From the NCBI RefSeq assembly GCF_030409845.1, contig NZ_JAUFQQ010000005.1:1984001-2048000 (forward strand): a stretch of 64,000 nt of DNA. The letters are read 5' to 3'. Every line of letters begins with the position of its first letter. Within the stretch, counting starts at the first letter, position 1. A program made the translations under genes and the position numbers. Positions 52,905 to 56,850 of this stretch are shown here, in pieces. Source of the stretch: Flavobacterium branchiarum. GTDB taxonomy: Bacteria; Bacteroidota; Bacteroidia; Flavobacteriales; Flavobacteriaceae. The notes under the pieces are model-generated. The model saw only the letters and a list, made by a program, of their open reading frames with translations. It made no database searches and was not told the DNA's origin.

Positions 52905-52939
52905 TAAACGAGCCACATCAATAAGATGTGGCTCGTTTA
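52905..52939 (-). terminator. Terminator-like hairpin after the ferredoxin operon
   Basis: TAAACGAGCCACATC pairs perfectly with GATGTGGCTCGTTTA around AATAA, 69 bp beyond the ferredoxin stop on the minus strand, with T-rich sequence after the stem (TTTATTTTACT). The rest of the 295-base gap up to the PSP1 gene shows only AT-rich sequence. Confidence 0.7.
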
Positions 52940-53007: not shown

Positions 53008-53238
53008 CTATGTTTCTTTAACTGTGATGATTTTTACTGGACAAGCTTTTGCTGCCAATTGACAACTTTCGACAATGGTATGATTTGTAGATTTTAAAGT
53101 ATAAAATCCTTTTGCATTTATCGAATGAATCAGAACAGATTTTCCGTCTTTTTTTGACATTTGAAAATGTACTGGGTCCATTTCTACGCAGTAGTTACAA
53201 CCGATGCATTTGTCTCTTTGTAGTGTTATGATTACCAT
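53008..53238 (-). CDS. Small ferredoxin-like protein
   Basis: A 76-residue protein with the cluster motif CIGCNYC and a second cysteine site CQLAAKACPV, which together give four cysteines for one 4Fe-4S (or 3Fe-4S) cluster. It ends the operon after the TrhP gene, overlapping it by one base (TAATG), so their translation is coupled. A ferredoxin next to a U32 iron-sulfur enzyme may deliver electrons to it or to TrhO; this is inference. Confidence 0.88.
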   Translation of the reverse strand: MVIITLQRDKCIGCNYCVEMDPVHFQMSKKDGKSVLIHSINAKGFYTLKSTNHTIVESCQLAAKACPVKIITVKET

Positions 53239-54479
53239 TACGCCTCAACTATTTTATATAATTTATCAGACATTCTGATTCTGAATGGCATTTTGAAGGT
53301 GCAATCATCGCCTTTTGTTGCCTTATCGGCTATGATGTCGTTTACATACATTTCGTCGATTACCATTTCTTGCGCTCCAGTACTTGGTCCTGTTACAAGG
53401 ATTCTATCTCCAATTTTAATGTCGTAAGCTTCTATTTTGAATTGTCCTACTTCGGCTTTTTGGAAGTAATGGGTTCCTTTGCCGACATAAACTTTTTTCT
53501 GAGTTGCCGCTGATCCAGGGATGTCACTCCATTCACCTAATTCTTGTCCTAGGTAATATCCTGACCAAAATCCACGATTATAAACGGTGTTTAAAGCTTC
53601 CATCCAAACAGTGATTTTTTCTTTAGAAAAACTACCATCGTAATAAGAATCAATAGCTTCGCGATATGTTTTTATTACTGTTGCTACATATTCTGGAGCA
53701 CGACCGCGTCCCTCAATTTTTAAAACTTTAATTCCTGAATCAATTACTTGATCTAGAAAATCAATTGTACATAAATCTTTAGGTGACATAAGGTATTCGT
53801 TATCGACTTCAATTTCAAAACCTGTTTCTTGATCTATGACAGTATATTTTTTACGGCAATTTTGTTTGCAAGCGCCTCGGTTCGCCGATGAGTTGTTTGA
53901 ATGTAAACTCAAGTAGCATTTTCCAGAAACAGCCATGCATAAAGCACCATGTCCGAAGATTTCGATTTCAATTAAATTTCCGTTTGGACCTTTTATTTGT
54001 TCTTTCTCAATTTGATCCGTAATACTTTTTACCTGACGAAGACTCAATTCTCGGCTTAAAACCATTGTGTCTGCAAATAAGCTGTAAAATTTTATTGTCT
54101 CGATATTGGTCACATTCAGCTGTGTCGAAATGTGCACTTCCATACCAATCGTTCTTGCCATTGCAATTACGGCTTGGTCAGATGCGATTACGGCTGTAAT
54201 GTTAGCTTCTTTGGCTTTGTTCAATAATGTTTTTACAACCGATAAATCGTGGTCATAAATTATTGTGTTTAGCGTAAGGTAGCTTCGAACATTTTTGGTA
54301 GCACAACGAGCAGCTATTTCTTGCAGATCATCCATGGTAAAATTAACCGTTGAACGTGCTCGCATGTTGAGTTGTTCTACTCCAAAATAAATTGAATCGG
54401 CGCCATTATCAAGCGCAGCCTGAAGCGACTCAAAGCTCCCTGCGGGAGCCATAAGTTCAATTGTATTGTTTATTGTCAT
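53238..54479 (-). CDS. trhP: Peptidase U32 family tRNA hydroxylation protein, TrhP-type
   Basis: A 413-residue single-domain U32 protein like E. coli YegQ (TrhP), which makes 5-hydroxyuridine at wobble position 34 of tRNAs in an oxygen-independent, prephenate-linked way. It begins ELMAPAGSFESLQAALDNGAD, has IFGHGALCMAVSGKCYLS and RGACKQNCRKKY (Cys181, Cys188, Cys204, Cys208, likely iron-sulfur ligands), GRGRAPEYVATV, and a C-terminal barrel at 328-413. That barrel is shared with the adjacent TrhO protein. The longer rRNA-modifying RlhA is unlikely because of the length. Confidence 0.85.
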   Translation of the reverse strand: MTINNTIELMAPAGSFESLQAALDNGADSIYFGVEQLNMRARSTVNFTMDDLQEIAARCATKNVRSYLTLNTIIYDHDLSVVKTLLNKAKEANITAVIASDQAVIAMARTIGMEVHISTQLNVTNIETIKFYSLFADTMVLSRELSLRQVKSITDQIEKEQIKGPNGNLIEIEIFGHGALCMAVSGKCYLSLHSNNSSANRGACKQNCRKKYTVIDQETGFEIEVDNEYLMSPKDLCTIDFLDQVIDSGIKVLKIEGRGRAPEYVATVIKTYREAIDSYYDGSFSKEKITVWMEALNTVYNRGFWSGYYLGQELGEWSDIPGSAATQKKVYVGKGTHYFQKAEVGQFKIEAYDIKIGDRILVTGPSTGAQEMVIDEMYVNDIIADKATKGDDCTFKMPFRIRMSDKLYKIVEA

Positions 54480-54485
54480 GATGGA

Positions 54486-55844
54486 TTAGTCTAAAATTTT
54501 ATAGATTTTATCCGACAATCTAATTCTAAAGGGAACTTCAAATGTTACTCTATCTCCTTTTACGGCAGTAGTATTTGCAGTGTCGTTAACCATCATTTTT
54601 TCTAAAACCAATTCTTGGTTGCCTGTTGTTGGTCCTGAAATTAAGATTTTATCACCACTATTAAGTTCGTGGTTTTCAATAGTAAAAAGTCCAACTTGTG
54701 CTTTTACATAATAATGCTCTGCTTTTCCAAGTAATACTTTTTTTACTTTTATTTTTTGACGAATATCTGCTGCTTTCTCAGTAATTGCTAAAGCTGTATC
54801 GGGTAATTCACCAGAATGTTTGAATCTTAAATTTTCTGATTTTCCTTTTCTAAACACTTTGTTTCCAACTTGCTTTCCAGTTCTCATTCTTACCTGATCT
54901 ACCAATGGCATGTGTATTACTTCAAGGCATTCTGTAGAGCAACAGTTTTCCATTGCCGATTTACATTCATCACATTGAATAAACAACAAATGGCATCCGT
55001 CATTCTCACAATTGGTATGATTATCACAAGGTTTTCCGCATTGGTGGCATTGTGAAATAATATCATCTGTGATTCTTTCGCCTAGACGATTATCAAATAC
55101 AAAGTTTTTACCAATGAATTTACTTTCTAGACCTTCTTCTTCAAGTTGTTTTTTGTAATTGATGATACCGCCTTCCAGCTGATATACATTCTTAAATCCT
55201 TGATGTTTGAAGTAAGCACTTGCTTTCTCACAACGAATTCCACCTGTACAATACATTACTAGGTTTTTATCTTCTTTATGATTTTGAAGTTGCTCGTTAA
55301 TTATCGGTAAACTTTCTCTAAAAGTTTCAACATCGGGAGTTATGGCTCCTTTAAAATGACCAACTTCACTTTCATAGTGATTTCTAAAATCAACTACAAT
55401 TGTATTTGGATCTTCAAGTATATCATTGAATTCTTTGGCTTTCAGGTGAACGCCTATGTCTGTAACATCAAAGGTTTCGTCATTAAGACCGTCAGCAACA
55501 ATCTTATCGCGTACTTTGATGGTTAGTTTTAAAAAGGAGTGATCGTCATGCTCAACAGCAATATTCAAGCGTAAGTCTTTCATGAAGTCATAGACTTCTA
55601 AAGTTTCTCTGAAAGTTTCTAAATTTTCTTCCGGAATACTCATTTGAGCATTTATTCCTTCGTTGGCAACGTAAATTCGACCTAAAGCATCGAGTGCGTT
55701 CCAGGCTAGAAATAAATCATCGCGAAATTTTTTGGGATCTTGAATTTTTGCATACGCATAGAAAGACAACGTAAGACGTTGTTTACCTGCATCATCAATC
55801 ATGATGGCTCTTTCTTCTGCGCTCAAAGTGTTATACAGTTGCAT
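54486..55844 (-). CDS. trhO: TrhO rhodanese tRNA hydroxylase with a fused U32 C-terminal domain
   Basis: A 452-residue protein related to E. coli YceA (TrhO), the oxygen-dependent maker of 5-hydroxyuridine in tRNA. N-terminal part to about 95, rhodanese domain about 120-240 with active site YCTGGIRC (Cys199, Cys205), then a cysteine-rich zinc-type segment at 266-306 (CHQCGKPC, NCENDGC, QCDECKS, CCSTEC). Residues 368-452 align without gaps to 328-412 of the U32 protein next door, 46 of 85 identical by hand count. E. coli TrhO ends before this region. Six bp lie between its stop and the trhP start. The ATG at 55844 is chosen. Confidence 0.88.
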   Translation of the reverse strand: MQLYNTLSAEERAIMIDDAGKQRLTLSFYAYAKIQDPKKFRDDLFLAWNALDALGRIYVANEGINAQMSIPEENLETFRETLEVYDFMKDLRLNIAVEHDDHSFLKLTIKVRDKIVADGLNDETFDVTDIGVHLKAKEFNDILEDPNTIVVDFRNHYESEVGHFKGAITPDVETFRESLPIINEQLQNHKEDKNLVMYCTGGIRCEKASAYFKHQGFKNVYQLEGGIINYKKQLEEEGLESKFIGKNFVFDNRLGERITDDIISQCHQCGKPCDNHTNCENDGCHLLFIQCDECKSAMENCCSTECLEVIHMPLVDQVRMRTGKQVGNKVFRKGKSENLRFKHSGELPDTALAITEKAADIRQKIKVKKVLLGKAEHYYVKAQVGLFTIENHELNSGDKILISGPTTGNQELVLEKMMVNDTANTTAVKGDRVTFEVPFRIRLSDKIYKILD

Positions 55845-56825
55845 GCTATAAACAGTTTTAAGTTGAGGAATATTTTTGAGGTGCAAAGGTAGGAAAAAGG
55901 TTTTAAGAAACAAAGAGGCACTAAGGTTCAGAGTTGCAAAGGTTTTTTAGAGGTACTGAGTTACTAAGGTTCTGAGAGACTGAGACTGGATGTAAAGGTT
56001 CAGAGGTTTCGTAAGATTTGAGAAGAAAGATTTGAGAAGAAAGAAAAGCTTTGCGTTTTAGCGTCTTTGCGAGAACCCAATAACTAGATGTACAAAGGTT
56101 CAAAGGAGCAGAGTTTTAAAGTTTCGGAGGGGCAAAGGTTTCGTAAGATTGGAGAAGAAAGAAGAGAGAGTAAAGACTATTTTAGAAAGAGGTTCAGAGG
56201 TTCAAAGTTGCAAAGGTTTTTAAAGATTGAAGATTTGAGAAGAAAGAAAAGCTTTGCGTTTTAGCGTCTTTGCGAGAACCCAATAACTAGAGGTTCAAAG
56301 GAGCAGAGTTTTAAAGTTTCGGAGGGGCAAAGGTTTCGTAAGATTGGAGAAGAAAGAAGAGAGAGCAAAGACTATTTTAGAAAGAGGTTCAGAGGTTCAA
56401 AGTTGCAAAGGTTTTTAAAGATTGAAGATTATAGAAGAAAGAAAGCTTTGCGTTTTAGCGTCTTTGCGAGAACCCAATAACTAGATGTACAAAGGTTCAA
56501 AGGAGCAGAGTTTTAAAGTTTCGGAGGGGCAAAGGTTTCGTAAGATTGGAGAAGAAAGAAGAGAGAGTAAAGACTATTTTAGAAAGAGGTTCAGAGGTTC
56601 AAAGTTGCAAAGGTTTTTAAAGATTGAAGATTATAGAAGAAAGAAAGCTTTGCGTTTTAGCGTCTTTGCGAGAACCCAATAACTAGATGTACAAAGGTTC
56701 AAAGGAGCAGAGTTTTAAAGTTTCGGAGGGGCAAAGGTTTCGTAAGATTGGAGAAGAAAGAAGAGAGAGTAAAGACTATTTAGGGAAGAGGTTCTTAGGT
56801 CCTAAGGTGCTGAGAAACTGAGACT

Positions 56826-56850
56826 GTCCTTCGACTACGCTCAGGATGAC
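56826..56850 (-). repeat. Dispersed 25-nt motif, copy 2
   Basis: The reverse complement runs from GTCATCCTGAGCG to AGTCGAAGGAC and matches 21624-21648 with two mismatches. A CTTCGACTACG word also occurs near 59596. Confidence 0.6.

Follow-up and report, generated by a model that had tools for sequence, protein, structure and literature searches.

Within the window, as we call the whole 64-kb stretch of DNA analysed here, three genes, trhO, trhP and a ferredoxin gene, occupy positions 53008..55844, all on the minus strand, as are all features described below. The trhO gene (54486..55844) encodes a 452 aa protein that is predicted to belong to the O2-dependent tRNA U34 hydroxylase family and carries a C-terminal extension. 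The core of this protein (residues 1-340; 54825..55844) can be aligned to E. coli TrhO through residue 337, and tailless relatives stop at about this point; it includes the rhodanese active-site loop CTGGIRC (residues 199-205; 55230..55250), recognized by conservation across 64 TrhO sequences. The core is followed by a variable linker (residues 341-367; 54744..54824), which differs in length and sequence among relatives and had block pLDDT values of 54-68 in the model, and by a tail (residues 368-452; 54489..54743) that appears to be a copy of the C-terminal, U32_C-type beta-barrel of TrhP.

The trhP-like gene (53238..54479; 413 aa) encodes a U32 domain and then a C-terminal barrel; residues 328-412 (53244..53498) make up the same domain as the TrhO tail. 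A spacer of 6 bp (54480..54485) separates trhO from trhP and is in the reading frame common to both genes (55844-54479 = 1365 = 455 x 3), with a stop and two more codons intervening. The gene for the 4Fe-4S ferredoxin (53008..53238; 76 aa) starts in the stop codon of trhP, with one base in common (TAATG). Coordinates and sequence thus agree with the initial annotation, which had described the 6 bp distance and the TAATG overlap; it had also placed trhO and trhP at separate loci in E. coli, and they do lie apart there, at about 1.117 and 2.166 Mb. A pattern scan found a terminator-like hairpin of 15 pairs 3' of the ferredoxin gene (52905..52939). Three such hairpins in the window versus 2.2 expected is statistically weak, though the stem at the ferredoxin gene is long.

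Identity of the encoded proteins

The window TrhO scored 266.7 bits against the NCBIfam TrhO family NF001133, above the curated equivalog cut-off of 170; it has the Pfam domains UPF0176_N, Rhodanese and Rhodanese_C and is 53% identical to E. coli TrhO. The CXGGXR loop required of TrhO is present as CTGGIR (residues 199-204): C199, T200, G201, G202, R204 and C205 were invariant in the 64 sequences, and I203 was conserved in at least 90% of them. The equivalent residues of E. coli TrhO, C200, T201, G203 and R205, are required in vivo, according to the available part of PMC6599085. As had been proposed, E. coli TrhO has no extension; it is 350 aa long, and the alignment reaches its residue 337. 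The TrhO core was poorly modelled in part (blocks at residues 101-120, pLDDT 36-44); for this reason its rmsd to the TrhO structure 9j5o is high (10.4), and domain placement was not read from the model.

In the second protein we found Pfam Peptidase_U32 (5.9e-69) and four cysteines, C181, C188, C204 and C208, invariant in 39 sequences; a U32 domain followed by a U32_C-type domain is the architecture expected of TrhP. Its score against the NCBIfam TrhP family NF011996 was 201.3 bits, below the cut-off of 534 (E. coli TrhP scores 875.4), and its identity is 28% to E. coli TrhP, 32% to E. coli RlhA and 29% to UbiU. A separate RlhA homologue is encoded in the same genome. The C-terminal domain aligned in part and weakly with that of E. 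coli TrhP (hhalign, 46 columns, probability 19%), and a whole-TrhP profile matched no PDB chain. We infer the name TrhP from the operon and from the fact that no genome in two sampled families was without both genes; the protein is best called TrhP-like, below the family cut-off.

The ferredoxin matched Pfam Fer4_13 (7.8e-12) and Fer4_15 (5.1e-11). The YfhL ferredoxin family NF033683 (cut-off 86 bits) was absent among the best 25 of 46 NCBIfam matches, the best of which, to another family, scored 23.3 bits; E. coli YfhL gave no BLASTP match at 1e-3. In the window's genome no protein passed the CmoB cut-off, and the one O-methyltransferase (PF01596) encoded there is a possible candidate for TrmR.

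Homology and fold of the tail

TrhO residues 368-452 and TrhP residues 328-412 align without gaps. The 46 identities over 85 positions that had been counted by hand were reproduced (BLASTP 6e-29), with a Smith-Waterman score of 255, far above that of 2,000 shuffles (mean 30.6, sd 4.7, maximum 51). At the DNA level 162 of 255 positions, and 39 of 85 third codon positions, are identical, indicating that the copy is old rather than recent.

The profile search that had been suggested as a check on the TrhO C-terminus came out negative: with Peptidase_U32_C (PF16325) no match was found in the window proteins at E <= 1, let alone at the Pfam gathering score. Searched one by one, 11 of the 64 TrhO sequences (ten of the 64 being tailless) and 7 of the 39 TrhP sequences matched PF16325, all weakly (best 5e-4 and 0.037, respectively). 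It is by structure comparison that the modelled tail is a U32_C-type domain. The fold of the TrhO tail was predicted confidently, as judged by pLDDT, and the predicted tails matched the solved fold of a U32 C-terminal domain, superimposing on 4he5 at 1.2 Å (TrhO) and 1.1 Å (TrhP), each over 80/82 of its residues. The models show the predicted barrel to be of the U32_C / translation-factor domain-2 type. Fold matches of the tail include IF2, eIF5B and eEF1A, and the first 12 of the 15 matches of a tail profile against PDB were EF-Tu chains, at marginal E-values of 0.0089-0.03. Direct comparisons were weak: hhalign gave 1% for the tail against EF-Tu domain 2 (control 0.2%), and the pairwise scores against the E. 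coli TrhP C-terminal domain and EF-Tu domain 2 were reached by 176 and 88 of 1,000 shuffles.

Distribution of tailed TrhO

We observed tailed TrhO in 149 of 150 Flavobacterium genomes; the exception, G223, has a fusion described below. In a second family (148 genomes, including Chryseobacterium, Epilithonimonas, Kaistella and Elizabethkingia) TrhO was found in 81 genomes (E <= 1e-40) and was tailed in 80 of these. A phylum-wide draw of 118 genomes gave full-length matches to tailed TrhO, among the matches listed, only in Flavobacterium (6/6) and in a single genus from a different family (2/2), the remaining TrhO matches listed ending by residue 356. Within the window's own family TrhO was present in 183 of 199 genomes; three were tailed among the matches listed (to about 3e-156), two from Flavobacterium and one from another genus. 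The best 120 of 1,451 protein-database matches to the tail were all of TrhO type. The initial annotation had named, as a finding that would count against it, an extension widespread in TrhO and unlinked to trhP. The second part of this holds within the clade, where the tail is independent of trhP; the first does not, since no tailed TrhO was seen outside the clade among the matches listed.

Retention and selection where trhP is absent

The gene trhP was present in 74 of the 150 Flavobacterium genomes (E <= 1e-60) and the ferredoxin gene in the identical 74 (E <= 1e-12), so the ferredoxin travels with trhP. In 73 of the 74, trhP follows trhO on one contig and in the same orientation, at most 1.4 kb downstream, and in 42 it is within 60 bases of trhO. 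Presence and absence data attest INDEPENDENCE from trhP: the other 76 genomes have neither trhP nor the ferredoxin gene, and the tail is kept in all 76. The second family repeats the pattern, with the tail kept in 56 of 56 genomes having TrhO and no trhP.

The two genes are complementary in presence. The window's family divides into 132 genomes with trhO only, 51 with both genes and 16 with trhP only, and the second family into 56, 25 and 67; genomes without both numbered 0 of 199 and 0 of 148, while 10.6 and 25.4 would be expected if the genes were independent, kinship ignored. Such complementarity supports the notion that trhO and trhP do one job here.

To compare selection we used dN/dS in 33 close relatives, of which ten lack trhP (one genome was scored trhP-less according to the 398-genome search described below). 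Pairs with core pS > 0.55 or a ratio that was not finite were dropped; as genomes recur among the pairs, these are not independent of each other. The median dN/dS of the tail was 0.118 where both members had trhP (202 pairs), 0.112 in mixed pairs (158) and 0.110 where both lacked it (32), with core medians of 0.040, 0.038 and 0.033, respectively; the tail thus evolves at about three times the dN/dS of the core. No link between trhP loss and change in the tail was seen in these 33 relatives, and selection on the tail looks equally strong in trhP-less genomes. Since 76 of 76 genomes without trhP and ferredoxin keep the tail under purifying selection, docking of TrhP or the ferredoxin by the tail is unlikely, and the same genomes speak against the earlier suggestion that the two tails serve a common partner.

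Evolutionary history

The tail arose once. In the tree of TrhO cores every tailed TrhO sampled fell, together with the fusions and the tailless G750 protein, into one clade (100/100), apart from 14 tailless relatives from the window's family; seven TrhO sequences from other families of the class and one further genome were dropped from this tree, and a quicker tree to which more distant sequences were added likewise needed one change in tail status. In the tail tree all TrhO tails lie on one side of a branch and all TrhP tails on the other (100/99), a split that persisted when ten more distant TrhP tails were added. This alignment is short, with weak forks around the joint and a bootstrap that was not settled; seven long tails (six of TrhO, one of TrhP), a split TrhP and the TrhO part of the fusion were left out. 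The placement of TrhO tails within the flavobacterial TrhP tails was drawn and weakly supported, and a single clade of TrhO tails and Flavobacterium TrhP tails was not rejected (AU p 0.517). The earlier claim of domain duplication from one protein into the other is thus supported as to copying from TrhP to TrhO; the position of the donor is weakly supported. Gene conversion between the tails had been considered for some TrhP-like TrhO tails; it is not supported, as the trees separate TrhO from TrhP tails.

TrhO of the second family is nested in Flavobacterium (98/93, 97/85). The seven TrhP found there beside tailed TrhO grouped with two of eight sampled TrhP from TrhO-less genomes (99/94), and these second-family TrhP clustered with TrhP of other genera, not with those of Flavobacterium (99/95). 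The simplest reading of the trees is a transfer of tailed trhO alone out of Flavobacterium, to a place beside a resident trhP. The operon itself does not depend on the tail, as nine trhO-trhP-ferredoxin loci from other genera, chosen by hand rather than drawn at random, are tailless.

Full-length TrhO-TrhP fusions

When the 776 aa protein of G223 was searched against 398 Flavobacterium genomes (383 matched), we observed four unbroken full-length matches, in G223 itself and in three other genomes. Each of these loci encodes one protein of 770-776 residues comprising the TrhO core, a short linker and the whole of TrhP, and the start of the ferredoxin gene overlaps the end of the fusion gene. The four fusions form one group (92/84) within the tailed clade; given this nesting, TrhO probably lost its own tail upon the joining of whole TrhP. 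The fifth match, in G750, is not fused: a tailless TrhO of 345 aa is followed by a stop and by TrhP in the same frame. In the Flavobacterium cases seen, the own tail is missing only where TrhP is joined or directly follows; tail status in the other genomes added by the 398-genome search falls outside this statement. No fusion was present among the best 120 of 3,393 protein-database matches.

Proposed role of the tail

With a homologous domain and a single origin observed, we suggest that a Flavobacterium ancestor copied the 3' end of trhP onto the end of trhO; this would have happened within the trhO-trhP-ferredoxin operon, e.g. through a trhP duplication and subsequent in-frame deletion. The product, as the model and fold match depict it, is a TrhO catalytic core with a variable linker and a beta-barrel of 85 residues. 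Its retention under purifying selection suggests that the barrel acts as a part of TrhO rather than as a dock for TrhP or the ferredoxin. It may aid the handling of tRNA by TrhO, by higher affinity or by a wider range of U34 tRNAs hydroxylated, and may serve TrhP in the same way. One subclade has trhO and trhP merged into a two-headed protein with a single barrel left.

A role of the tail within TrhO, plausibly in tRNA handling, is the reading we prefer, with a probability of roughly 0.55. The shared tRNA-binding surface, one of the functions initially suggested, is favoured by the translation-factor domain-2 type of the predicted barrel. According to the available part of PMC6599085, E. coli TrhO binds tRNA-Ala1 and not tRNA-Leu3, whose mark is made mainly by TrhP; a tRNA-contacting domain of TrhP could therefore widen the range of TrhO. 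Several observations count against tRNA handling. TrhO is the sole member of the pair in 132 of the 199 window-family genomes and is mostly tailless there among the matches listed, so TrhO can serve alone without the tail; tRNA binding by TrhO does not need it either, since the TrhO chain complexed with tRNA-Ala in 9j5o leaves no room for one, as far as the available record goes. In addition, the net charge of the TrhO tail is only about +2, the tail's dN/dS is roughly threefold the core value, and G750 lost the tail while remaining unfused. We put forward tentatively a bolder version: the U32_C barrel would be a cassette for tRNA recognition that can be moved between proteins; its move from the O2-independent to the O2-dependent enzyme would have given TrhO the range of tRNAs that TrhP has, and the four fusions would be dual-mode hydroxylases using O2 or prephenate with two active sites and one shared cassette.

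Rather more doubtful, though to be taken seriously, is that the tail binds a target other than tRNA (the ribosome, another modification enzyme or itself in an oligomer) or only stabilizes TrhO. Translation-factor barrels, including those of the matched IF2, eIF5B and eEF1A, are found in proteins with several partners, and function does not follow from fold alone; still, no result here indicates such a partner, and both barrel-carrying proteins are tied to tRNA U34. The gene called trhP might also be another U32 hydroxylase gene merely residing beside trhO and not serving U34, as could be argued from an identity to E. coli TrhP no higher than that to RlhA or UbiU, from the NCBIfam score and from the report, in the available part of PMC6599085, of yegQ-type trhP mainly from gamma- and beta-proteobacteria. 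We consider this improbable in view of the complementary presence of trhO and trhP (kinship ignored), the neighbourhood of the genes, the tail in common with TrhO and the separate RlhA homologue in the genome. The tail as a docking module assembling TrhO and TrhP, or both with the ferredoxin, into one complex has a slim chance: the constant proximity of the two genes (73/74) and their union into one protein in four genomes would suit it, but the tail persists at similar dN/dS in 76 of 76 Flavobacterium genomes that have neither trhP nor the ferredoxin, and it is missing from nine related operons. That the tail is a nearly neutral leftover of an accidental gene fusion, for which one could cite the higher dN/dS of the tail than of the core and the related genera that keep TrhO without it, is scarcely credible given a dN/dS of about 0.11, a confidently predicted fold and near-universal retention in a clade that includes a second family.

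In this clade, transfer has given a common domain to two unrelated enzymes that are believed to place one and the same tRNA mark by different chemical routes. The graft singles out the non-U32 part of TrhP, and such a natural domain swap makes the job of the domain testable, with controls supplied by nature: full fusions, tailless TrhO, and tailed TrhO from genomes that have or lack trhP. If tRNA choice is set by the barrel, this is relevant to how an organism can give up one of the two wobble-hydroxylation pathways. TrhO, TrhP, U32_C and the dual pathway were known already, while the graft, its retention after trhP loss and the two-headed fusions appear to be new; no description of the tail or the fusion was seen in searches of open-licence PMC papers, at the level of listings and the beginnings of abstracts, including the available parts of PMC6599085 and PMC9723704.

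Comparison with known systems

The tie of the tail to domain 2 of EF-Tu, eEF1A and other translation GTPases is one of fold and marginal sequence scores, and the window proteins have no GTPase domain. The structures 4he5 and 4he6 show, by the available part of their records, the C-terminal domain of a U32 protein from Geobacillus thermoleovorans, 20% identical to the TrhO tail and 16% to the TrhP tail; there the barrel sits on a U32 protein, whereas in the window it is also carried by a rhodanese-family hydroxylase. E. coli TrhO (YceA; UPF0176) resembles the window TrhO in its core domains and active-site loop and passes the same family threshold, but at 350 aa it stops near the start of the window's linker and is without the barrel. 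The same applies to the 352-residue B. subtilis TrhO chain of 9j5o, which has no space for a whole tail past the matched core.

E. coli TrhP (YegQ) has the two-part architecture of the window protein, Peptidase_U32 followed by Peptidase_U32_C, at 28% identity; its gene is distant from trhO, unlike that of the window. In B. subtilis, TrhP1 and TrhP2 (YrrN and YrrO) are both U32 proteins, unlike the window's pair of TrhO and a U32 protein, and we liken the two systems by description, not by sequence. YrrO carries the C-terminal motif that characterizes E. coli TrhP, and the YrrN and YrrO genes, as described in the available part of PMC6599085, adjoin each other and serve one wobble mark, as trhO and trhP appear to do in the window.

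Variation of trhP in Flavobacterium

The trhP gene was found broken across two frames in one Flavobacterium genome (G239, locus L141, 1658-2898). At the same locus, trhO still carries the C-terminal tail, and a ferredoxin frame is present. The broken gene could possibly represent a trhP undergoing loss, or else a sequencing error. In another Flavobacterium genome (G147, trhP at locus L148) trhP and trhO reside on different contigs; its trhP has only 73% identity to the trhP of the window and forms a long branch in the tree. Possibly, this trhP was acquired separately.

Directly upstream of trhO we observed a repeat region, with four direct repeats of ∼205 bases each at 56045-56848 (82-99% identity to the reference copy) and shorter repeats from ∼55906 on. 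In F. psychrophilum, start sites reported with promoter motif SM6 include that of a YceA rhodanese-related gene (PMC9723704).

Related modification enzymes

The search of the window's genome for CmoB gave no match above the cut-off; the sole strong match to the O-methyltransferase family PF01596 in this genome lay at locus L286, 1390-2103. Here mo5U, and not cmo5U, may be the wobble mark made from ho5U.

The same genome encodes another U32 protein, 622 aa long (locus L001, 1279-3147, G000:C5). Given the presence of DUF3656 and an alignment of 618 columns with E. coli RlhA at 42% identity, this protein is likely to be a 23S rRNA hydroxylase.
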